Assembly (NCBI GenBank): GCA_947589105.1
Contig: CANQBL010000009.1
Location: 1-32,076, forward strand
Direction: 5' to 3'
DNA: 32,076 bases
From: an uncultured Bacilli bacterium
GTDB taxonomy: Bacteria; Bacillota_I; Bacilli_A; RF39; UBA660
Positions 14,634-32,076 of this stretch are shown here, one piece after another. Both the position numbers and the translations under genes were made by a program. The notes beneath the pieces are model-generated. The model was not told the DNA's origin, did no database searches, and saw nothing but the letters and a program-made list of their open reading frames with translations. Each line of letters starts with the position of its first letter. Position 1 is the stretch's first letter.

Positions 14634-14639
14634 TATAAT
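14634..14639 (+). promoter_or_regulatory. -10 box before the Bro-N-like gene
   Basis: TATAAT lies 23 nt before the ATG at 14663. The -35 is poor (ATTCAA at 17 nt), which would fit activator dependence but does not prove it. Confidence 0.4.
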
Positions 14640-14662
14640 TGTTAAACGGCAAGGAGGCTACT

Positions 14663-14974
14663 ATGAAAGAAGAAAAATTAAAAACCATAACAAAATTATT
14701 TGAAGGTAATGAAATAAGAAGCATTTGGGATAGTAAAAAGGAAGATTACTATTTTAGTGTTGTTGATGTAATAAGTGTGTTAACAGAAAGTAAAATACCA
14801 AAAAGATATTGGACTGATTTAAAAAGAAAGCTAATTGAAGAAGGCAGCCAGTTGTACGAAAAAATCGTACAACTGAAATTAAAATCTTTGAAGGACGGAA
14901 AATATTATTTGACTGATGTGCTTGCAACAGAAGGTATATTTAGACTTATAGAATCTGTTCCTAAAACCATTTAA
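14663..14974 (+). CDS. Truncated Bro-N (phage antirepressor-like) protein
   Basis: The 103-aa product has the N-terminal Bro-N-type fold seen in phage antirepressor-like proteins: IRSIWDSKKEDYYFSVVDVI, then TESKIPKRYWTDLKRKL and TDVLATEGIFRLIESVP. Full-length relatives known to me continue after ESVPSPKAEPFK for 150 residues or more; here the frame ends with VPKTI and a TAA. The 30 bp that follow do not encode the missing part in any frame. It is therefore a shortened remnant or a stand-alone domain. The start (ATG 14663) follows AAGGAGG; an ATG eight codons upstream overlaps the -10 box. Confidence 0.75.
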   Translation: MKEEKLKTITKLFEGNEIRSIWDSKKEDYYFSVVDVISVLTESKIPKRYWTDLKRKLIEEGSQLYEKIVQLKLKSLKDGKYYLTDVLATEGIFRLIESVPKTI

Positions 14975-15037
14975 GTATAAAATAACATTTTAGTTTTTGT
15001 AAATATGATTGTAAAATTAGAAAAGGAGATTAAAACA

Positions 15038-15871
15038 GTGTTAGAACTAAAAGTAGATAATCAAATTATTAATTACACTAAAATAAATAATGAAGATTAT
15101 ATTTCTATTACAGATATGATTAAATCAAAAGATGGAGAATTTTTTATATCTGATTGGCTTAGAAATAGAAATACTATTGAATTTTTAGGAATTTGGGAAG
15201 AACTTCATAATCCTAAATTTAATTATGGCGAATTCGCCATAATTAAAAGTAAGGCGGGTTTAAATAGTTATAAGATTAGTGTTAAAGAGTGGGTCAATAA
15301 GACAAATGCTATTGGTATAACATCAAAAGCGGGAAGATATGGTGGAACATATGCTCATAAAGATATTGCTTTTGAATTTGGTATGTGGATTAGTCCAAAA
15401 TTTAAATTGTTGTTAATTAAAGAGTTTGAAAGATTAAAACAAGAAGAACAAAAACAATTAGGATGGAGTGCTAAAAGAGAACTATCTAAAATTAATTATA
15501 AAATTCATACGGAGGCAATTAAAAATAATTTAATACCTAAGAAATTAAGTAATGAACAAATAAACTTTGTTTATGCAGAAGAAGCAGATGTATTAAATAT
15601 GGCTTTGTTTGGAATTACGGCAAAGGAATGGAGAAAACAAAATCCAAATTTAAATGGTAATATAAGAGATTATGCTTCTATTGATGAACTTATATGTTTA
15701 GCAAATTTAGAAAATTTAAATTCGGTATTTATTAGTGATGGATTAACTCAGGCTAAGAGACTGGAAAGGTTAAATAAAATTGCTATTTCAGAAATAAAGA
15801 TATTATCGGAAAGTAATATGAAATATTTAAATAATAATGACGAAAAAACAAAAAATATTATTTGTAATTAA
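15038..15871 (+). CDS. KilA-N domain protein (phage-type DNA-binding/antirepressor relative)
   Basis: The 277-aa protein carries a KilA-N domain in the N-terminal half: YTKINNEDYISITDMIKSKD, then ISDWLRNRNTIEFLGIWEEL and GRYGGTYAHKDIAFEFGMWI followed by SPKFKLLLIKEFERLK. The C-terminal half is helical and has a second conserved block, FVYAEEADVLNMALFGITAK. KilA-N proteins are common in phages and as solitary genes in gut Firmicutes, and probably bind DNA. A GTG start at 15038, 9 nt after AAAGGAG, is preferred; an ATG at 15005 lies before that site. It follows a truncated Bro-N gene, so the two look like leftovers of phage DNA. Confidence 0.85.
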   Translation: MLELKVDNQIINYTKINNEDYISITDMIKSKDGEFFISDWLRNRNTIEFLGIWEELHNPKFNYGEFAIIKSKAGLNSYKISVKEWVNKTNAIGITSKAGRYGGTYAHKDIAFEFGMWISPKFKLLLIKEFERLKQEEQKQLGWSAKRELSKINYKIHTEAIKNNLIPKKLSNEQINFVYAEEADVLNMALFGITAKEWRKQNPNLNGNIRDYASIDELICLANLENLNSVFISDGLTQAKRLERLNKIAISEIKILSESNMKYLNNNDEKTKNIICN

Positions 15872-19049: not shown

Positions 19050-19076
19050 AAAACACAAAAATAAATGTGTTTTTTT
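19050..19076 (+). terminator. Terminator of the deacetylase gene
   Basis: AAAACACA and TGTGTTTT pair around an AT loop, followed by T residues. Confidence 0.8.
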
Positions 19077-19139
19077 CTTTGGCTTAATAATTATTCACGT
19101 TCAAATTTTTTTCATTTAATATTAAGGGGGATTAATATT

Positions 19140-20108
19140 ATGGAAAAAAAGGGAATTGATATAAGTCATCACCAAGGTGATATAGATTTCGAAAAGTTAA
19201 AAGGAAATATAGATTTTGCTATGGTAAGAACAAGTTATGGTTCTTTTTATGAGGATAGAAAATATAAACAAAATATTCAAGGTTTACAAAGGGTTGGTAT
19301 TCCTTATGGTTTGTACCATTTTTCATATGCTACAAACGTTTCTGATGCAAAAAAAGAAGCAAAAGGATTTATTAATTTAATTAAAAATTATAATCCTACG
19401 TATCCAGTAGTAATAGATATAGAATCATCTGATAGGACAAATAACGTTAGTAAAGATACACTTATAAATATTGTTAAAACTATTTGTAATGAGATAGAAG
19501 AAGCAGGTTACTATGTAATGATATACGCAAATTTAGACTATTTAAATAATAAATTAAATGAAAGTTCTCTAGATAAATATGATAAATGGTTAGCACAGTG
19601 GAGTAATAAACCAACTTATAATAAAACCTTTGGAATGTGGCAATATTCTTCTAAAGGAAGCATTCCAGGAATAAAAGGTAATGTAGATTTAAATATAGCT
19701 TATAAAGATTACCCATCTATAATAAAAGAAAAAAAATTAAATAATTATAATAATAATGTAGATAATAATAATGATAATAATGAAGAAAATAATACTAACA
19801 TTATTAATTACGTAGTAAAAAAAGGTGATACTTTAATTAAAATAGCAACAAAATATAAAACAACTTATCAAGTATTAGAAAGTTATAATAACATATTAAA
19901 TCCAAACAAAATATACCCAGGTCAAATAATAAAAATACCATGGAATTTAGAAATAAAGCCTACTTCTTACGTAGTAAAAAAAGGAGACAGCTTAAGTAGC
20001 ATAGCTAAAAAATATGGAGTAAATTGGAAAACTCTATATGAAAAAAATAAATCTGTAATAGGTAAAAATCCAAATGTTATAAAACCAGGTCAAGTATTAA
20101 ATATTTAA
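19140..20108 (+). CDS. GH25 muramidase with two LysM repeats
   Basis: The 322-aa enzyme cleaves peptidoglycan between MurNAc and GlcNAc. The GH25 domain (about 4-195) contains Asp7 in KGIDISHHQGD, Asp93/Glu95 in VVIDIES, and YGLYHFSYA. An Asn-rich linker (about 202-222) leads to two LysM domains, each starting YVVKKGDTL or YVVKKGDSL, which bind the wall glycan. There is no signal peptide or membrane segment at the chosen start (ATG 19140 behind AAGGGGG); the longer frame begins inside the preceding terminator and is not credible. A leaderless muramidase resembles a phage endolysin or a protein released by another route. Confidence 0.93.
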   Translation: MEKKGIDISHHQGDIDFEKLKGNIDFAMVRTSYGSFYEDRKYKQNIQGLQRVGIPYGLYHFSYATNVSDAKKEAKGFINLIKNYNPTYPVVIDIESSDRTNNVSKDTLINIVKTICNEIEEAGYYVMIYANLDYLNNKLNESSLDKYDKWLAQWSNKPTYNKTFGMWQYSSKGSIPGIKGNVDLNIAYKDYPSIIKEKKLNNYNNNVDNNNDNNEENNTNIINYVVKKGDTLIKIATKYKTTYQVLESYNNILNPNKIYPGQIIKIPWNLEIKPTSYVVKKGDSLSSIAKKYGVNWKTLYEKNKSVIGKNPNVIKPGQVLNI

Positions 20109-20195: not shown

Positions 20196-20225
20196 TTGAC
20201 TATAATTTTAAAAAAGTGGTATTAT
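20196..20225 (+). promoter_or_regulatory. Promoter of the first exported matrix-like gene
   Basis: TTGACT (20196-20201), 18 nt and TATTAT (20220-20225). The block TTAAAAAAGTGGTATTATA (20208-20226) recurs exactly at 20868-20886. Confidence 0.7.
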
Positions 20226-20256
20226 AATTCTAGAAAATAAAGGAAGGAGTTTAGTA

Positions 20257-20805
20257 ATGAAAAAACAAAATATTGCAATAATAGCAGTAGTAGCATTTGT
20301 GCTAGCAATATCAGTAGGTTATGCATTATTCTCAGAAACTTTGCAAATTAACGGAACCGCAACAGCCAAAGGAAATTTTGATGTGCAATTTACTAGTGCA
20401 ACTCAGGGAGATAGTAAAGGCTATACAAAACAAAAGGAGCCAGAACATGAGCTTGCTAAAATAGAAGATGGAGGTAAAACTTTAACTATTACTGTTAATA
20501 AGCTTGATTATCCAGGAGCGTATGTAAATATTCCAATAACGGTAACAAATCAGGGAACTATTTCTGCTGTTTTAAAGTCTGTAGAACAAACCTCTGCTGA
20601 AGAAATTCAAGATCCAATTAAAATTACTTATACTGGTTTAACTGAAAACCAAGGAGAAGAAAAAACTATTGCATCAGGTGCAACTCATACTTTTAACGTA
20701 AAGGTTGAATGGGATCCTGAAGATAATGATAAAAGTAACAAAAGAGATGTGACTACACAATTTAAAGTAACATTAAATTATGAACAAGCAGTTAACCAAA
20801 ATTAA
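20257..20805 (+). CDS. TasA/SipW-type exported surface protein 1
   Basis: The 182-aa precursor starts with a hydrophobic signal (residues 7-22) followed by VGYALFSETLQINGTATAKG and NFDVQF. The A-x-F-S…G-x-A-x-G-x-(F/L)-(D/E) pattern after the hydrophobic core is the mark of signal peptides handled by SipW-like peptidases, as in TasA and camelysin. The mature part is a beta-rich domain with NIPITVTNQGTISAVLKSVE and THTFNVKVEWD, shared with the next gene. It probably forms surface fibres or matrix, by analogy with TasA. It has its own promoter and terminator. Strong start: AAGGAAGGAG. Confidence 0.78.
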   Translation: MKKQNIAIIAVVAFVLAISVGYALFSETLQINGTATAKGNFDVQFTSATQGDSKGYTKQKEPEHELAKIEDGGKTLTITVNKLDYPGAYVNIPITVTNQGTISAVLKSVEQTSAEEIQDPIKITYTGLTENQGEEKTIASGATHTFNVKVEWDPEDNDKSNKRDVTTQFKVTLNYEQAVNQN

Positions 20806-20815
20806 TAAATAACAA

Positions 20816-20843
20816 GCAAAGCTTTAATTAGCTTTGTTTTTTT
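20816..20843 (+). terminator. Terminator between exported proteins 1 and 2
   Basis: CAAAGCT (20817-20823) and AGCTTTG (20830-20836) form a stem followed by seven T residues. Confidence 0.82.
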
Positions 20844-20855
20844 AATTTCTTAAAG

Positions 20856-20885
20856 TTGACTTAAAAATTAAAAAAGTGGTATTAT
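20856..20885 (+). promoter_or_regulatory. Promoter of exported proteins 2 and 3, twin of the 20196 promoter
   Basis: TTGACT (20856-20861), 18 nt and TATTAT (20880-20885). The spacer end and the -10 are identical to the upstream promoter. Confidence 0.7.
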
Positions 20886-20913
20886 ATTTATACATAATAA
20901 AGGAATGTCATAT

Positions 20914-21417
20914 ATGAAAAAACATAAATCAATTTTAATCGGGTTTCTAGGATTTTTATTTTCCATGACGGTTGGGTATGCATTATTTAGTCAAACTGTA
21001 ACTATTAACGGGACTGCAACAGCAAGAGGTAGTTTTGATATAGAATTTACTGAAGCTAAAATTGTTGATCAAGTTGGTTCAACTAATTCTTCTGCTATTA
21101 TAAGTGATGATAAAAATAGCTTAAATATTTCTATTCCTAAGTTAGAGTATCCCGGAGCTTATGTTGTTGTAGCTGTTACAATTACTAATAAGGGATCAAT
21201 TCCTGCTTTTTTGGAAAGTATAGAAGAAAAGGGATTAAATTCTGATGAATCTATTAAGGTTTCTTATACGAATCTTAGTGAATTAAAAAATGTTGTATTT
21301 AATCAAAATGATACTCAGACTTTTAATGTTAAGGTTATATGGGACGATAAATCTAATAAGTCATCTAGTGATGTTAATTTTACTATTAAATTAAATTATA
21401 AACAAATTATGAATTAG
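20914..21417 (+). CDS. TasA/SipW-type exported surface protein 2
   Basis: This paralogue of the preceding gene has 167 aa. The signal region reads MTVGYALFSQTVTINGTATA, then RGSFDIEF; the mature domain has YPGAYVVVAVTITNKGSIPA and TQTFNVKVIWDD, matching protein 1 closely. Duplication of one ancestor is the simplest reading. The start is ATG 20914, 9 nt after AAAGGA; an ATG three codons earlier overlaps the ribosome site. It probably forms an operon with protein 3 (33-nt gap). Confidence 0.77.
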   Translation: MKKHKSILIGFLGFLFSMTVGYALFSQTVTINGTATARGSFDIEFTEAKIVDQVGSTNSSAIISDDKNSLNISIPKLEYPGAYVVVAVTITNKGSIPAFLESIEEKGLNSDESIKVSYTNLSELKNVVFNQNDTQTFNVKVIWDDKSNKSSSDVNFTIKLNYKQIMN

Positions 21418-21450
21418 TTATATCAAAAAAGGTATAAAGGAAGGTGTGTT

Positions 21451-22041
21451 ATGCAACATGTTAAAAATAAAAAAAGATTATTTACTATTAGCTGTATAAT
21501 TTTTATATATGTTTTAGCTATGAGTATAGGGTATGCTTTTTTTAGTGAGTCTTTAACCATTAATGGTGTTGCTAGCACAGTTGATTATTATGAAGGAGAA
21601 AAATTACCTGTTACGGCAGTTATAAGAGATACTGAAAATAATAGATACTATACGTCTGATACTGAAAAAAATCATTTGGTTTTTAATTTTGAATCTTGGG
21701 AGAATGATACTTATACTTTAAAGATAAAAAAAGAAGTTGGTATTGTAATAGGAGAAAAAACTATAACTTATGTTATATCATTTATAAATCCAACAACAAC
21801 AACTTTTACTAATGGTACAATTAGTACGGAAATTACTAAAAATACTAATGGCCATATAAAAAATTTAAGTGGAACTTTATCAAAAGAAGAAGTATCTCCT
21901 GGTGAACAAGTGGATGTTTCATTCACTATAAAGTCTAATTTTTTAACTAATTATGGAGAGGATTCTGCTAAAGCAACTATTACATATACTTATCAAAATA
22001 AACCTAGATATCTTTACTTTATAGTTGATTATATAAATTAG
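21451..22041 (+). CDS. TasA/SipW-type exported surface protein 3 (divergent)
   Basis: The precursor has 196 aa. A basic N-terminus (MQHVKNKKR) and a hydrophobic core lead to MSIGYAFFSESLTINGVAST, clearly the same cleavage-type region as proteins 1 and 2. After it the sequence differs: a Thr-rich domain with INPTTTTFTNGTISTEIT and ISTEITKNTNGHIKNLSG-type segments and SPGEQVDVSFTIKSNF. It could be a minor or capping subunit of the same fibre, as TapA is for TasA, but that is inference. Ribosome site GGAAGGTG. Confidence 0.74.
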   Translation: MQHVKNKKRLFTISCIIFIYVLAMSIGYAFFSESLTINGVASTVDYYEGEKLPVTAVIRDTENNRYYTSDTEKNHLVFNFESWENDTYTLKIKKEVGIVIGEKTITYVISFINPTTTTFTNGTISTEITKNTNGHIKNLSGTLSKEEVSPGEQVDVSFTIKSNFLTNYGEDSAKATITYTYQNKPRYLYFIVDYIN

Positions 22042-22136
22042 TAAATTGTCTAGATAATAGTCTAATAAAAAAATTATATTTGAAAAATTACTTATTATAA
22101 ATTTATTTAATTGATTAGACTAAATTAGGAGGGCAA

Positions 22137-23333
22137 ATGAAAAAGAGTATTAAATTATTAATCTTAGCATTAATTATTTTATCTTCAATAATACTTGAGG
22201 TTACTAAAGTATCTTTAATACTAGGTTCTTCGTATGCTTATGTTGTAAAACCTATGATTTGGATTTTCATAGGTATTATTAGTTTTGTTTTCTTTAAAAA
22301 TGATAAATTAATTAATAATAAGTATAAAAAAGATGTTTTCTTTATTGTTAGTGTTACGACTCTTTTATATTTTCTTTTATATTTTTTCTTAGGCTACATT
22401 AAGGGTTTTGCAAATAATCCGTATGACACATCATTTAAGGGTATAATTACTAATTTATGGGTACTTTTACCTATGTTAATAGTTAAAGAATATGTTAGAT
22501 ATTATATGATTAATAATTGTAATCAGAAAAAAGTTTTATTAAATGCTTTTCTTATATCTTTTTTATTTACGTTAGTTGAGTTAAATATTTATAAATTTGA
22601 TGCTTATTTTTCAACATCACTTGCCACTTTAGAATTTGTTATGCAAACGTTTATCCCTAGCTTAATAACAAATTTGTATTTAACATATGTATGTTATTTT
22701 GCAGGATATCAAACTTCTATATTTTATATTTTGATTCCTCAATTAATCATATATGTTTTACCAATTCTACCTGATATAGATTGGGCTACACTTTCTATTA
22801 TAAACTCTGCTACTCCATTTTTTTCCTATATATATATAAATTATTATATTAATAAAATGGATAAAACCTTGAATAGAAAAGAAGTAAAAACTGTTGATTT
22901 TAAAGGTTGGCTTAGTATGATTGCAATTGTTATTTTAATGGTTTGTTTTGGATTAGGGGTATTTTCTTATAAGCCTTTAGTAATTGCAAGTAATAGTATG
23001 GCGCCTAAAATTCTTAAAGGCGATATAGTTATAATAAAAGACGTAGACGTTGGAAATGTTAAAAAATGTGATGTAATAAGATATAAAATGGAAGGCTATT
23101 ATGTAGTTCATAGGGTTGTTATGATATCTGAAAATAATGATGGTGAAAAAGTCTTTATAACTAAAGGTGATAATAATGATAATATAGATTTGTATCCAGT
23201 AAAACAATCACAATATGCTGGAATTGTTAAATTCGATATTCCGTATTTAGGTTATCCGACATTAATTCTTAATAAACTTTTACATACTAATGTTGAAGAT
23301 AAAGTTAGTGTTGATAAAGGAAGGATAGAATAG
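22137..23333 (+). CDS. SipW-like signal peptidase I fused to a multi-span membrane domain
   Basis: The 398-aa protein has six or seven hydrophobic segments in the first 240 residues, then a further anchor (257-277) and a C-terminal signal peptidase domain. Catalytic Ser287 is in IASNSMAPKI and His325 in YYVVHRVV, with GDNND (344-348) supplying the acidic residue. A Ser-His rather than Ser-Lys pair marks the ER/archaeal/SipW class. SipW normally has about 190 aa, so half of this protein is an unexplained membrane module. It sits amid four genes with SipW-type signal regions, which it very probably processes. An inverted repeat (AGTCTAAT … ATTAGACT) lies in the 95-bp upstream gap. Start behind AGGAGGG. 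Confidence 0.83.
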   Translation: MKKSIKLLILALIILSSIILEVTKVSLILGSSYAYVVKPMIWIFIGIISFVFFKNDKLINNKYKKDVFFIVSVTTLLYFLLYFFLGYIKGFANNPYDTSFKGIITNLWVLLPMLIVKEYVRYYMINNCNQKKVLLNAFLISFLFTLVELNIYKFDAYFSTSLATLEFVMQTFIPSLITNLYLTYVCYFAGYQTSIFYILIPQLIIYVLPILPDIDWATLSIINSATPFFSYIYINYYINKMDKTLNRKEVKTVDFKGWLSMIAIVILMVCFGLGVFSYKPLVIASNSMAPKILKGDIVIIKDVDVGNVKKCDVIRYKMEGYYVVHRVVMISENNDGEKVFITKGDNNDNIDLYPVKQSQYAGIVKFDIPYLGYPTLILNKLLHTNVEDKVSVDKGRIE

Positions 23334-23382
23334 TATTATTTGTCGTAATTTTACTAGTAGGAATTTATAATAGAGTTTTGGG

Positions 23383-23411
23383 TTGTAAATTAATTTACTA
23401 GGTGTTATACT
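23383..23411 (+). promoter_or_regulatory. Promoter of exported protein 4 and the DUF5305-like gene
   Basis: TTGTAA (23383-23388), 17 nt and TATACT (23406-23411), 22 nt before the next start codon. It differs from the twin promoters upstream. Confidence 0.6.
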
Positions 23412-23432
23412 TTAATATGATAGGGGTGTCTC

Positions 23433-23924
23433 ATGAAAAAGCAAAGTTTATTTATTGTTTTAATAGTGCTATGCATTATAACTATGGCAGTGGGATATTC
23501 TATTTTTAGGACAAATATTGAAGTAAGTGGTAAAACAGCAGAAGCGAAGGATCTTGAAGTTATTTTTACAAACGTTGGAGAAATAAAACAAGAGGGTTGT
23601 ACTTATGCAAAAGCTATAATATCTGAAAATAAGAAAAAAATTACTATAAGTGTTGAAATTTCTAACCAAAAAGGTTCTTTTGCAAATTTTCCAATTACTT
23701 TAAAAAACGTAGGATTAATACCTGCTAAACTTAGATCAATAAGACAAATTGGAACAAGTAATTTTCCTTTAGAAGTTAGATATACTGGAATTGGTGTTAC
23801 TGATTTAGTATTAAATCCTGGGGATGAGCAAGAATTTAATGTTATAGTTTCTTTAAATGATAATACAATCCCTGATAAGGATTCTTATAAATTTTATATA
23901 GATTTTGATTATATACAAGGTTAA
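23433..23924 (+). CDS. TasA/SipW-type exported surface protein 4
   Basis: This 163-aa precursor has a signal region ending MAVGYSIFRTNIEVSGKTAE, then AKDLEVIF, the same pattern as proteins 1-3 but with Arg in place of Ser after the F. The mature domain has FPITLKNVGLIPAKLRSIRQ and GDEQEFNVIVSLND, the same fold as proteins 1 and 2. It is cotranscribed with the downstream membrane protein (12-nt gap). Its position after the signal peptidase supports processing by that enzyme. Confidence 0.75.
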   Translation: MKKQSLFIVLIVLCIITMAVGYSIFRTNIEVSGKTAEAKDLEVIFTNVGEIKQEGCTYAKAIISENKKKITISVEISNQKGSFANFPITLKNVGLIPAKLRSIRQIGTSNFPLEVRYTGIGVTDLVLNPGDEQEFNVIVSLNDNTIPDKDSYKFYIDFDYIQG

Positions 23925-23936
23925 GGAGGTATTATA

Positions 23937-25043
23937 ATGAATAAACTAAAGTTAAATGATAAACTAAAGTTAAATAAAATAGACCCCAAAAAAGTAATTA
24001 TATCTTGTCTTTTAGTTATTGCATTGGTTATTCAGTTTGCTTTTTTAAGCTATTTGTTTAAAGCACTTATTCCAAACGAAAATAAAAAAGAAGAAAATGT
24101 AATAATGAGTTATAATCAAGGTGGGAATTTTGATTATAAGGTATTTTTAATACCTAATGAGTTTATTAAAGAACAGTATTTGGGACCTAATGAGGCTTAT
24201 ATATTAAATTTAATTGATCATATTCAGATAAATTCGTTATATAATTTTTCTGCTACTGAAAAAACTAGCGTGACTGGAACTAATAAAGTTACTGCAAAAT
24301 TAGTTGTATATTATAGGGAATCTAGCGATAAGACTGCTAATCCAGAAATTTTGAAAAAAGAAGACGTATTAGAGGAAAAAGTTGTTAATTTTAATGATAA
24401 GACTTATAGTACTATTAGTACGTATGATATATATTTAACAGAATATTTAAAGACTTTAAAAGAGTTTCAAAGCCAAGTTAAAATATCAGTTGAGGGTTAT
24501 TTAGAAATTAATTCCGAAACTAAATTTAATGGTTTAGTTGGAGGAGCAGCATATAATGATAAATATACAAATACTTTAAAAATACCACTTAGTTCATCTG
24601 TTATTAAAATTGAAAATTCAAGATCAAATCAAAAAACTAATAAAGTATATGAAGGAGATCTTGTAAAAACAAATAAAACAGTAATGAGTTTTATAGTAAT
24701 AGCAAACATAATAGTATTTATTATTATTTGCGTTCTACTAAAAAAATTATTTATGTTTACTAACAAATCAGAGTATGATAGATTCTTAGAGAAAATACTT
24801 AAAAATTATGATGATATTATAGTTAATACTTCTTCTATTATAGAAGTAGAAAAATACAAATTAGTAGAAATAAATGAGTTTAAGGAGATTCTTAACTTAT
24901 CAAGAGAGCTTTTATTACCAATTATGAATTATGAAATAGAAAAAGGAAGGGAAACTTGGTTTTACGTTATAAAAGATGATATTTTATATAGGTTTATAAT
25001 TTCAGAAGACACAATAAAGGCAACAAAAAAACATGAAGAATAA
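23937..25043 (+). CDS. DUF5305-like bitopic membrane protein of the matrix cluster
   Basis: The 368-aa protein has two membrane spans (about 20-42 and 248-268) bracketing an external domain of about 200 residues with YNQGGNFDYKVFLIPNEF and FSATEKTSVTGTNKVTAKLV, and a cytoplasmic C-terminal tail of about 100 residues. This layout and the Y-x-v-x-L-x-P-N start of the external domain match DUF5305 proteins, which are often found next to SipW-type signal peptidases. It may assist assembly or anchoring of the exported proteins. The N-terminus has a short direct repeat (LKLNDKLKLN). Strong start AAGGAGG; terminator directly after the stop. Confidence 0.75.
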   Translation: MNKLKLNDKLKLNKIDPKKVIISCLLVIALVIQFAFLSYLFKALIPNENKKEENVIMSYNQGGNFDYKVFLIPNEFIKEQYLGPNEAYILNLIDHIQINSLYNFSATEKTSVTGTNKVTAKLVVYYRESSDKTANPEILKKEDVLEEKVVNFNDKTYSTISTYDIYLTEYLKTLKEFQSQVKISVEGYLEINSETKFNGLVGGAAYNDKYTNTLKIPLSSSVIKIENSRSNQKTNKVYEGDLVKTNKTVMSFIVIANIIVFIIICVLLKKLFMFTNKSEYDRFLEKILKNYDDIIVNTSSIIEVEKYKLVEINEFKEILNLSRELLLPIMNYEIEKGRETWFYVIKDDILYRFIISEDTIKATKKHEE

Positions 25044-25072
25044 AAGAAGAAAATTAATTTTTTCTTCTTTTT
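25042..25072 (+). terminator. Terminator of the matrix cluster
   Basis: AAAAGAAGAAAA and TTTTCTTCTTTT pair over about 11 bp with a short AT loop, beginning within the stop codon. Confidence 0.8.
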
Positions 25073-29266: not shown

Positions 29267-30778
29267 ATGAAAAATAAAAAAGTGTTATTTATATCAATTG
29301 TAGCAATAATACTAGTGTTAATATTAGCAATATTTTTAACTCCAAATTTAATAAAGAGATTAAAAGCTAATATTTTTAGCACATCAAGTAATCAAAAAGA
29401 AGTTATAAATGATAATGCTGTAGATCAAATATGTGGTGCAGAAATTAATAATGAAAATTTTATTACTGTAAATGGTAACGTTGTTATTAATAAAGGTAAT
29501 GAGGGTGTAGCAACAATTAATATAAAAAGTGATAATCTTGTATTTACAAAAGAAATTAAAGTTAAATCTAACGAATTTTCTTCTTTTAATTATGTTTTAC
29601 CTCGAGGTAATTATACCTTAACCATAACTAAAGATGGTTATAAAACATATCAAGAACAAATATCTGAAAGTAAAGATCTTACGATTACTCTAGTAAGTAA
29701 TGATATGGGAAATCTATTATTTTCTAGTAGAACTTTTTTAAATACTTACTATGAGTATTATCAAGATGGTACTTTACATTTAAAAGCAATTGGTAGTCCA
29801 TATGATTATTTTTCTGAAGATAAAATGATTGATGAAAACTTTTTTTATAGTGCTTTAACAGATGTTTTAGTAAAAAGTATAACAAGTAAAGGTTTTTTAA
29901 TAGAATATTTTAATTCAGCTAAAGAAAATGATCTTGTTTTTCAATTTGTTTCGTTAGTCTTCCCAGGCTTCATACAAGATGCTGAAACTAAAAATCGATT
30001 AATTGAAATTAGTAATAAGATAAAAAATAATGAGTGTAATAATGAAAATTATTTAACGGATGAAAGTTGTATACTTTTTGATTCAACTGATATTAAAGAT
30101 GATAATTATTCTTTTGAAGTTTATAAAAATGTTTTAGATATTATTATTAATATTCCGCAGCAAACTAAGTTAATTATCGATGATGACGTAGTTGTATTAC
30201 CATTTCTTTCTTTTGTATCGGCAGATGAAGTTATTGTTAATAAAAATATTCTTTTTCTTAATGATTATACATTCATGTCTTCTAAAATAAAAACAATGAC
30301 TATTAATACGCCTTTATTTGGTGATTATGGAAGTTATTTTGCGAGTGCATCTAAAATAAATAATCTAATAATCGGTGAGGGTATTACTAATATACCATCT
30401 AATGCTTTTTCTGGATCAGAAATTGATAATGTTAGATTACCTAGCACACTTGAAGAAATTGGAACAAGTTCATTTGAAGATGCTAAATTAAATGGTATTG
30501 TATTACCAGATAGTGTAAAATATATTCGGGATAATGCTTTTAGTAATCTTGGTATTACAGATATTAAGTTACCTAATAGTTTAATTGAAATTGGTAGATA
30601 TGCTTTTTCTGATAATAAATTAACTAAAATAACTATACCTGAAAGAGTTGAAAAAATATGGGATTACGCATTTTATAATAACGCTATAAAAGAAGTTGAA
30701 ATAAAAGGGAATAGAACTAGATTTAACAATGATTGGTCACATATAGGCTTTCCTGAAAATTTAAAGCCTAGTGAATAA
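29267..30778 (+). CDS. Membrane-anchored surface protein with PEGA-like and BspA-type LRR regions
   Basis: The 503-aa protein has an N-terminal membrane anchor (about 5-25) followed by TPNLIKRLKAN. A PEGA-like segment (about 100-140; YVLPRGNYTLTITKDGYKTY) follows, then a central region of unknown fold. The C-terminal third is a BspA-type leucine-rich repeat array (about 365-485) with units such as GITNIPSNAFSGSEIDNVRL and DSVKYIRDNAFSNLGITDIK. BspA-like repeats mediate adhesion and binding in gut and oral bacteria. Two Cys residues near 260-275 may form a disulfide. No LPXTG sorting signal is seen, so the N-terminal span is the anchor. Start behind AAAAGGAG; probably an operon with the next gene. 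Confidence 0.83.
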   Translation: MKNKKVLFISIVAIILVLILAIFLTPNLIKRLKANIFSTSSNQKEVINDNAVDQICGAEINNENFITVNGNVVINKGNEGVATINIKSDNLVFTKEIKVKSNEFSSFNYVLPRGNYTLTITKDGYKTYQEQISESKDLTITLVSNDMGNLLFSSRTFLNTYYEYYQDGTLHLKAIGSPYDYFSEDKMIDENFFYSALTDVLVKSITSKGFLIEYFNSAKENDLVFQFVSLVFPGFIQDAETKNRLIEISNKIKNNECNNENYLTDESCILFDSTDIKDDNYSFEVYKNVLDIIINIPQQTKLIIDDDVVVLPFLSFVSADEVIVNKNILFLNDYTFMSSKIKTMTINTPLFGDYGSYFASASKINNLIIGEGITNIPSNAFSGSEIDNVRLPSTLEEIGTSSFEDAKLNGIVLPDSVKYIRDNAFSNLGITDIKLPNSLIEIGRYAFSDNKLTKITIPERVEKIWDYAFYNNAIKEVEIKGNRTRFNNDWSHIGFPENLKPSE

Positions 30779-30807: not shown

Positions 30808-32076
30808 ATGAAAAAGAAAAAATTATTTTTGAGTATTGGAATTATTATTTTATCGTTGTTAGTAGTATGTTTAATAGGTTTTTCTCCATCTATATATAAA
30901 AGATTACGAGGTAATGCAAATTCATTTGAAAGTGATAATGGCCAAGCTGTTAAAACCGGTGTTGTTATTGATACAAAGCTTATTAATGATGGTGATATTA
31001 CATCAATTCCGCTTAAAATATATAATGGTTCAGATAAAAAAATTACTATTAAATCTATAATAAGGGCTAATTGTGAGGAAAGCGTAGATTCGTGTAAGGA
31101 TGAAACTGAAATACAAAATAATAAACAGATTGAGGTTAACCCTGATGAGGATTATGAGTATAATGTAACATTACAAGCTATTAATCCAGATAACAGTGAA
31201 TTTTCTGGCCTAATTAAGATAGGAATACAGTATGAATTAGAAGGAAAAACTTATAAATTATTTACTTATTCTCTTGTTTTACAGGGAGAAGATTTTAATA
31301 AATATGTAGATAAATCAATGATGAATTTTGATGGTTTTCAACTTGAAATGAATTCTACAAAATTTAGACCAAATATTTCAAATGGTTCTAATAATTCAAG
31401 AAAAACTAGCGAAATATTTATTCAAATACCTTGTAAAAAAGTTGCCATGGATATCTCTGAAAATCTTAAAGATATAGGTTTATGGTATATAGTATATCCA
31501 AATGATGATGTTGATAACTTAGAGGTTAGTCATCCTCAGTCACAGGACTCATTAACTAAAAACATGCTAGGTGAAAGTAACCAATCTAATATTTCACAAT
31601 ATTTTGATTTTTCTTATATTAATGAAAAGAAACATGGTTCTGGTAAAATGCTTGTAGGAAGTGAAATAGTTAGTTATGATTTCCAAACTGGAAAATTTAT
31701 CTTAACAGATAATAAAGATAATAAAAATGGTATATACTTTTATCTAGAAGGAACTCCAAAACAAACTGTTGAAAATGTTAAGATTATTCCAGGCCTTTAC
31801 TTTAGGGAGTATGGTAATGAAAGCGAAAATAATTATGTATATTCATCAGAAACCGAAGATTTTATTAATGTAAAAGATGCAAATAATACTGGTGAGATGC
31901 CAAGCTTTGAGCTTACTGTTTATGACAAATCTAAATTATATGAATTATTAAAAAAGAGGGTTAATGAAATTACAAAAGTAAATGAAGACCAAGTAGAGTT
32001 AGAAAGTTTTATTTCTTCTTTTGAGGCTTTATATGAAGGTTTAAATACTTATATTAATAGAAGTGTTACGCAAAGT
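30808..32076 (+). CDS. Membrane-anchored surface protein, incomplete at the window edge
   Basis: The frame is open from ATG 30808 (behind CGGAGGAG) to the last base, giving at least 423 residues. The N-terminal span (about 6-28) and the following SPSIYKRLRGNANSF resemble the start of the preceding protein, so the pair shares an anchor module. The extracellular part includes TGVVIDTKLINDGDITSIPL and a Cys pair (ANCEESVDSC). The visible end (VYDKSKLYELLKKRVNEITK onward) looks like the start of helical FIVAR-type repeats. I cannot name a family. It lies 29 bp after the LRR gene with no terminator between, so cotranscription is likely. Confidence 0.78.
   Translation, partial: MKKKKLFLSIGIIILSLLVVCLIGFSPSIYKRLRGNANSFESDNGQAVKTGVVIDTKLINDGDITSIPLKIYNGSDKKITIKSIIRANCEESVDSCKDETEIQNNKQIEVNPDEDYEYNVTLQAINPDNSEFSGLIKIGIQYELEGKTYKLFTYSLVLQGEDFNKYVDKSMMNFDGFQLEMNSTKFRPNISNGSNNSRKTSEIFIQIPCKKVAMDISENLKDIGLWYIVYPNDDVDNLEVSHPQSQDSLTKNMLGESNQSNISQYFDFSYINEKKHGSGKMLVGSEIVSYDFQTGKFILTDNKDNKNGIYFYLEGTPKQTVENVKIIPGLYFREYGNESENNYVYSSETEDFINVKDANNTGEMPSFELTVYDKSKLYELLKKRVNEITKVNEDQVELESFISSFEALYEGLNTYINRSVTQS

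Follow-up and report, generated by a model that had tools for sequence, protein, structure and literature searches.

The cluster of six genes in the window (the whole stretch of DNA that was analysed, 32,076 nucleotides) is probably a self-contained unit that exports and assembles a donor-strand surface fibre of the TasA/AbpX-like type. The predicted fibre system would be a new variant and not a canonical tapA-sipW-tasA system. In the literature searched, we found no mention of DUF5305 and no link between RF39-type gut lineages and TasA.

In the proposed mechanism, four precursors (subunits A to D) would be exported by Sec and cut after GY[A/S] by a long-form Ser-His signal peptidase, which is likely to be dedicated to these substrates because sites with Phe at P2' are poorly handled by LepB. 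The cut would free the conserved N-terminal strand x-F-S-E-x-L-x-I-x-G-x-A, and the freed strand would enter the groove of the next β-sandwich subunit (donor-strand complementation) to build a non-covalent fibre. Subunit A is probably the main fibre subunit because it is first in gene order, has an apparent promoter and terminator of its own and diverges fastest. Subunits B and D may be co-subunits or minor subunits. Subunit C could sit at the end of the fibre, initiate it or act as an adhesin-type subunit; its slot is filled by cellulose-binding proteins in relatives. The DUF5305 protein would be a membrane partner for assembly or anchoring. A role of the predicted fibres in biofilm is possible; the organism is known here from MAGs alone.

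Operon layout and conservation

The window is an entire contig (C9) of a draft genome of 1.04 Mb that is 92.5% complete. The six genes lie on the + strand at 20257-25043 in the order A, B, C, peptidase, D and DUF5305, with intergenic gaps of 12-99 bases. The features are as follows.

20196-20225, +, promoter-like site 5' of A: TTGACT-18-TATTAT with an extended -10 (TGGTATTAT); consensus match only
20257-20805, +, subunit A: 182 aa, TasA/AbpX-like exported protein; predicted cleavage between ...VGYA and LFSETLQINGTA
20329-20373, +, early mature segment of A, codons 25-39: proposed donor strand with F25 (P2'), L29, I31, G33 and A35
20814-20839, +, terminator-like hairpin with a T-run, between A and B: near-identical at the same place in loci L013 and L014 of relatives
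20856-20885, +, second promoter-like site, 5' of B: TTGACT-18-TATTAT, a near-copy of the A site with AAAAAAGTGGTATTATA common to both
20905-21417, +, subunit B: 170 aa, A paralogue, ~45% identical
21451-22041, +, subunit C: 196 aa, divergent; SipW-type signal, different β-rich domain; in the slot immediately 5' of the peptidase gene
22137-23333, +, long-form Ser-His signal peptidase (S26B/Sec11/SipW type): 398 aa, ~250-aa N-terminal membrane domain and catalytic domain
23433-23924, +, subunit D: 163 aa, GYS↓IF variant, ~29% identical to A
23937-25043, +, DUF5305 protein: 368 aa, PF17231 match

The cluster start at 20196 given by the first-pass annotation coincides with the TTGACT-18-TATTAT promoter-like site. 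The same layout stands 5' of A in L013 and L015, and the site 5' of B is conserved in L013 and L014. Since a scan across the region gave promoter-like sites no more commonly than in shuffles, the promoter argument rests on this conservation. The arrangement of promoter-like sites and hairpin suggests that A is additionally expressed on its own, probably in excess. Translation of B probably starts at 20914, where an ATG is better placed for an AAAGGA site. In L015 (3432-4153), ~720 bases separate A and B, compared with ~100 bases in the window and in L013; this spacer may contain insertion-sequence remains.

Genes for a polysaccharide deacetylase and a GH25-LysM protein lie 5' of the operon, with synteny kept in relatives, and tRNA-Gln and tRNA-Glu genes lie 3' of it. 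An orphan TasA-like gene (L017 348-971) adjoins a GH25-like muramidase gene, as the window operon does (19065-20108), and this recurring neighbour may point to wall remodelling for export. Two more membrane-anchored surface-type proteins, lacking a GYAxF signal, are encoded 3' of the operon (29267-30778, with BspA-type LRR_5 repeats, and 30808-32076). Elsewhere in the window, two adjoining genes at 14639-15871, the second with KilA-N (PF04383), are similar to antirepressor-type genes of phages and lie in chromosomal surroundings, and a large serine recombinase (Resolvase, Recombinase, zinc ribbon) at 107-2164 possibly marks a mobile-element edge at the left end of the contig.

The nearest relatives are uncultured Bacilli MAGs, and two isolate names among them contain 'Lapin' (rabbit). 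Operon synteny is kept in three related MAG loci. The dN/dS values of 0.29-0.33 for the subunits and 0.125 for the peptidase indicate purifying selection, and A is the fastest-diverging of the six genes (60% identity to L013, compared with 86% for the peptidase). Synteny, the subunit dN/dS values and the motif enrichment described below rule out chance or spurious open reading frames. A mobile element was also rejected: plasmids hold no relatives of A, and none was confirmed in a scan of viral contigs.

Among 61 loci of the family, the long-form peptidase has DUF5305 within 1.6 kb in 58 and one or more neighbouring subunits in 54, most of the seven exceptions being at contig ends. The loci hold zero (7), one (23), two (18), three (9) or four (4) subunits. 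Four substrates had been thought exceptional, and this did not hold: four of these loci have four, the genome encodes five more such proteins on contigs C3 and C19, and the Clostridium perfringens sipW-bsaABCRSD operon encodes four putative secreted proteins, BsaA-D (PMC7395162). Contigs C10 and C19 share an exact 77-base end overlap (L016 1-777, L019 8278-10062); joined across the overlap, one gene would encode an N-terminal TasA-like domain ahead of DUF285/LRR repeats, with genes for a second long-form peptidase and a second DUF5305 after it.

Subunit C and a possibly exchangeable slot

Subunit C has its signal in common with A, B and D and differs in its mature part. A six-sequence profile for C matched gamma-adaptin appendage domains (E 1e-4), and the match was read as Ig-like topology in common only. 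PF00553 (CBM2) gave no match at E ≤ 1 in subunit C of the window, which has no recognisable binding domain, and no large adhesin is encoded in the operon.

The slot immediately 5' of the peptidase gene is occupied by CBM_2 proteins in L053, L054 (6837-7997), L065, L074, L089 and L064, the last being a fragment truncated by the end of its contig, with E values of 2e-24 to 4e-9. Read against the CBM2 consensus, several of them have aromatic residues at positions expected for the binding face. CBM_2 occurs in seven of the 117 family genomes; eight of its nine matches are in the slot, and the ninth, at a contig end, is not placeable. At other loci, large TasA-domain proteins with Flg_new or Laminin_G_3 domains are encoded 3' of DUF5305. 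The suggestion that the divergent C is a capping or adaptor subunit is plausible because relatives have CBM2 proteins in the C slot, while the weak model of its own fold (pLDDT 64) has only generic sandwiches as structural matches. By analogy of position, C may be the exchangeable binding subunit of this organism.

These neighbours bear on what the fibre would be for. Instead of a biofilm matrix, the operon could make short pili or a fibrillar coat whose end adhesins attach to plant fibre, mucin or the host; this is a refinement of the fibre explanation and not an exclusive alternative, and we consider it a real possibility that falls short of being probable. It agrees with the CBM_2 proteins in six relatives, the fusions of TasA domains with Laminin_G_3 or Flg_new, and a DUF285/LRR protein at the second locus of the genome. 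The lack of a recognisable binding domain in C and of a large adhesin in the operon of the window argues against it, and biofilm and adhesion are in any case not mutually exclusive. As a tentative extension, donor-strand fibres in this family of small-genome gut Bacilli might be modular carriers, in which binding subunits that can be exchanged for one another (CBM2 cellulose-binding, laminin-G and DUF285/LRR), C being one, are presented by a conserved core of A-type subunits, the long-form Ser-His peptidase with its unique membrane domain, and DUF5305. Functionally, such fibres might be the Gram-positive equivalent of chaperone-usher pili that carry end adhesins.

Subunit signals, proposed donor-strand segment and structural relatives

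The donor-strand fibre explanation draws on the N-terminal segments and the relatives of the subunits. As first noticed from the open reading frames, four small proteins carry GY(A/S)xF after a hydrophobic core: the N-termini of all of A-D are basic (lysines or arginines), followed by the core and G-Y-[AS]-x-F. An NG-x-A element, attributed to all four in this or a variant form, is present in A and B (INGTA) and C (INGVA) but degenerate in D (VSGKTA). With the cut position placed by analogy with TasA, the predicted sites are GYA↓LF in A and B, GYA↓FF in C and GYS↓IF in D, giving Phe at P2' throughout and Ala at P1 except in D, which has Ser; GY[AS]xF in A-D thus corresponds to the TasA-type site of P1 Ala and aromatic P2'. 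Residues G21, Y22 and F25 of A are invariant. The motif was found in 91 of 124 open reading frames matching the family profile and in 4 of 300 others with an N-terminal hydrophobic stretch, and therefore is not due to chance. In TasA, Phe at P2' and the flanking residues make a poor LepB substrate (PMC10269814). Some homologues have Leu instead of Phe at P2', so the argument from LepB exclusion is weaker family-wide.

Conservation continues beyond the cut. In 111 homologues, P2' (F/L), P6' (L), P8' (I/V), P10' (G) and P12' (A) each carry 1.5-2.4 bits, compared with 0.25 bits at unaligned later positions, and the residues between P6' and P12' are mostly polar, giving an alternating hydrophobic conservation. 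The donor strand of TasA fibres comprises residues 28-38, with contacts that include F29 and I32 (PMC9674648). AlphaFold models A as an eight-strand β-sandwich (pLDDT 77) and leaves residues 24-36 unplaced, with scores below 50, as would fit a strand whose place is in a neighbouring subunit. Subunit A thus combines an N-terminal strand unplaced in the monomer model with the alternating pattern.

A profile of 56 subunits against the PDB matched AbpX (9sj2, E 7.9e-10; 9rhp, E 6.3e-9), with the next best match at 0.011 and TasA entries reached at E 1.3. A narrower profile of 10 sequences (A-, B- and D-type, from close relatives alone) again matched AbpX (E 7.1e-6). By profile comparison, the closest solved relative of the subunits is archaeal AbpX, not TasA. 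TasA, ABP and ABPx have been grouped as donor-strand fibres (PMC11952670), and homology of the subunits to donor-strand fibre subunits is well supported at the sequence level. In a Foldseek search with the A model, the TasA fibre 8aur ranked fourth (E 9e-3, probability 0.92). VIA alignments of the model covered 128 residues of AbpA (7ueg), 126 of a thread filament (7pnb) and 112 of 8aur, at Z 5.3-5.8, and generic Ig-like sandwiches reached up to Z 6.7 over ~90 residues. The expected resemblance to TasA was thus borne out as a predicted β-sandwich with the TasA fibre, AbpA and the archaeal thread filament among its structural neighbours, but with Z scores tied with generic sandwiches; the comparison is consistent with a TasA/AbpA-like fold without being decisive.

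Against Pfam and NCBIfam, none of A-D scored above the thresholds, including those of PF12389 (TasA/camelysin) and TIGR04088 (SipW-type signal), and TasA-family membership by these models was rejected. PF12389 had no match in this genome at E 1e-8, and TIGR04088 none at E ≤ 1. Among the 56 homologues, PF12389 was reached at E < 0.01 by six (best 0.0011), TIGR04088 by one (E 0.047) and the BsaA model TIGR04090 weakly by two (E 0.008); other matches were to DUF11, CARDB and DUF7507 type domains. PF12389-type proteins came from only one genome of the sample. In L129 (618-1725), of the same family, there is a classical pair: a SipW-like peptidase of the short kind (171 aa) is accompanied by a protein that matches the camelysin model and bears a canonical SipW-type signal (GGTMAYFTDTES). 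That genome also has a long-form system. The label SipW/TasA-like fits the Ser-His peptidase separate from LepB, the TasA-like cut sites, the β-sandwich and the AbpX match, but not the family models or the identity of the closest solved relative.

It is unlikely that the subunits are instead exported, SipW-processed but non-polymerising proteins, lone Ig-like domains at the surface or wall, in which the early mature segment would do no more than let the peptidase recognise them. The generic sandwiches among the structural matches and the DUF11, CARDB and DUF7507 type domains of the homologues are compatible with this, and some conservation near the cut would be expected, since LepB kinetics depend on P3 to P4' (PMC10269814). 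The conservation, however, alternates and extends to P12'-P14', well past the protease subsite; AbpX, which was matched specifically, is a fibre subunit; and AlphaFold places the segment outside the fold.

Peptidase, DUF5305 and comparison with known systems

A Ser-His signal peptidase amid the subunit genes was confirmed. The enzyme, of archaeal type, matches TIGR02228 above the cut-off (E 1.7e-26), its Ser287, His325, Asp345 and Asp351 are invariant in 34 homologues, and profile comparison favours SEC11C (E 2.5e-23) over the Ser-Lys enzyme SipA (4e-4). The catalytic Ser and His, the conserved Asp and the ER-type homology are those of an S26B/Sec11 signal peptidase, and the score against the Bacillus SipW equivalog NF046067 (60.4 bits) is below the 190-bit threshold. 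Because a distinct LepB is encoded in the genome, its sequence showing the Ser and Lys expected in a P-type enzyme, the Ser-His enzyme looks dedicated to the substrates of the cluster. A second long-form Ser-His enzyme is also present in the genome. The N-terminal multi-helix membrane domain of ~250 residues (22137-22900) contains invariant G86 and P209 and near-invariant E118, R121, P174 and P212 in 34 homologues; Pfam and PDB profile searches gave no convincing match for it, and it possibly binds substrate or a partner. At E ≤ 1e-45, the long form was found in the family of the window and in two other sampled genomes of the class; the long-form profile reached 73 of 193 genomes of the order at E ≤ 1e-40, and a peptidase match at E ≤ 1e-10 was present in 65 of 117 family genomes, short-form enzymes included.

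That the enzyme is a general second signal peptidase, with an incidental association with the subunit genes, is very improbable: orphan substrates elsewhere in the genome and Leu at P2' in some homologues would suit it, but subunits adjoin the enzyme in 54 of the 61 loci, most of the others being at contig ends, and LepB is encoded separately. The idea that general Ser-Lys processing is the sole route was rejected, since the enzyme of the cluster itself is Ser-His.

The membrane protein described as DUF5305-like is a true DUF5305 protein (PF17231, E 2.2e-17, 63.7 bits against a gathering threshold of 29). It probably consists of an N-terminal transmembrane segment, an external domain, a second transmembrane segment and then the conserved domain, and is proposed to be the assembly or anchoring partner. 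In L091, of another family, a DUF5305 and Ser-His peptidase-like pair has acidic, halophile-like neighbouring proteins, and this genome bin possibly holds archaeal contamination.

Among known systems, Bacillus subtilis tapA-sipW-tasA has in common with the window a Ser-His SipW-type peptidase, a P1 Ala/P2' Phe site, a conserved N-terminal strand and a β-sandwich, whereas the window has no PF12389 match and no recognisable TapA but has the extra membrane domain of the peptidase and DUF5305. The C. perfringens operon likewise has a single SipW for four putative secreted proteins, and its main subunit is followed by a terminator with readthrough, which may be compared with the hairpin after A; unlike the window, it includes the BsaR/BsaS two-component system, and DUF5305 is not among its listed genes. 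In B. cereus, several such secreted subunits have been reported (PMC13082335, PMC10151520); sipW-tasA-capP-calY there resembles the window in having several co-assembling subunits and an accessory protein, but its subunits are of the camelysin family, and the portions of these papers that were covered describe no DUF5305 or long-form peptidase. Gram-negative chaperone-usher pili are alike in the principle of donor-strand complementation and a possible end adhesin, but the window has no chaperone or usher, export and envelope differ, and the machinery is not homologous. The archaeal AbpA/AbpX bundling pili include the best solved sequence relative and have β-sandwich subunits joined by donor-strand complementation, as predicted here, while the window operon is bacterial and encodes four paralogues and a long-form peptidase. 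Four substrates are thus not novel in themselves; the C slot holding CBM2 proteins in six relatives is more so. The spread of a conserved peptidase-DUF5305-fibre module through a single family with very small genomes in the gut hints at a way for such reduced bacteria to hold on to plant fibre or the host, gives DUF5305 a testable context, and joins the bacterial TasA-type and archaeal bundling-pilus systems by sequence.
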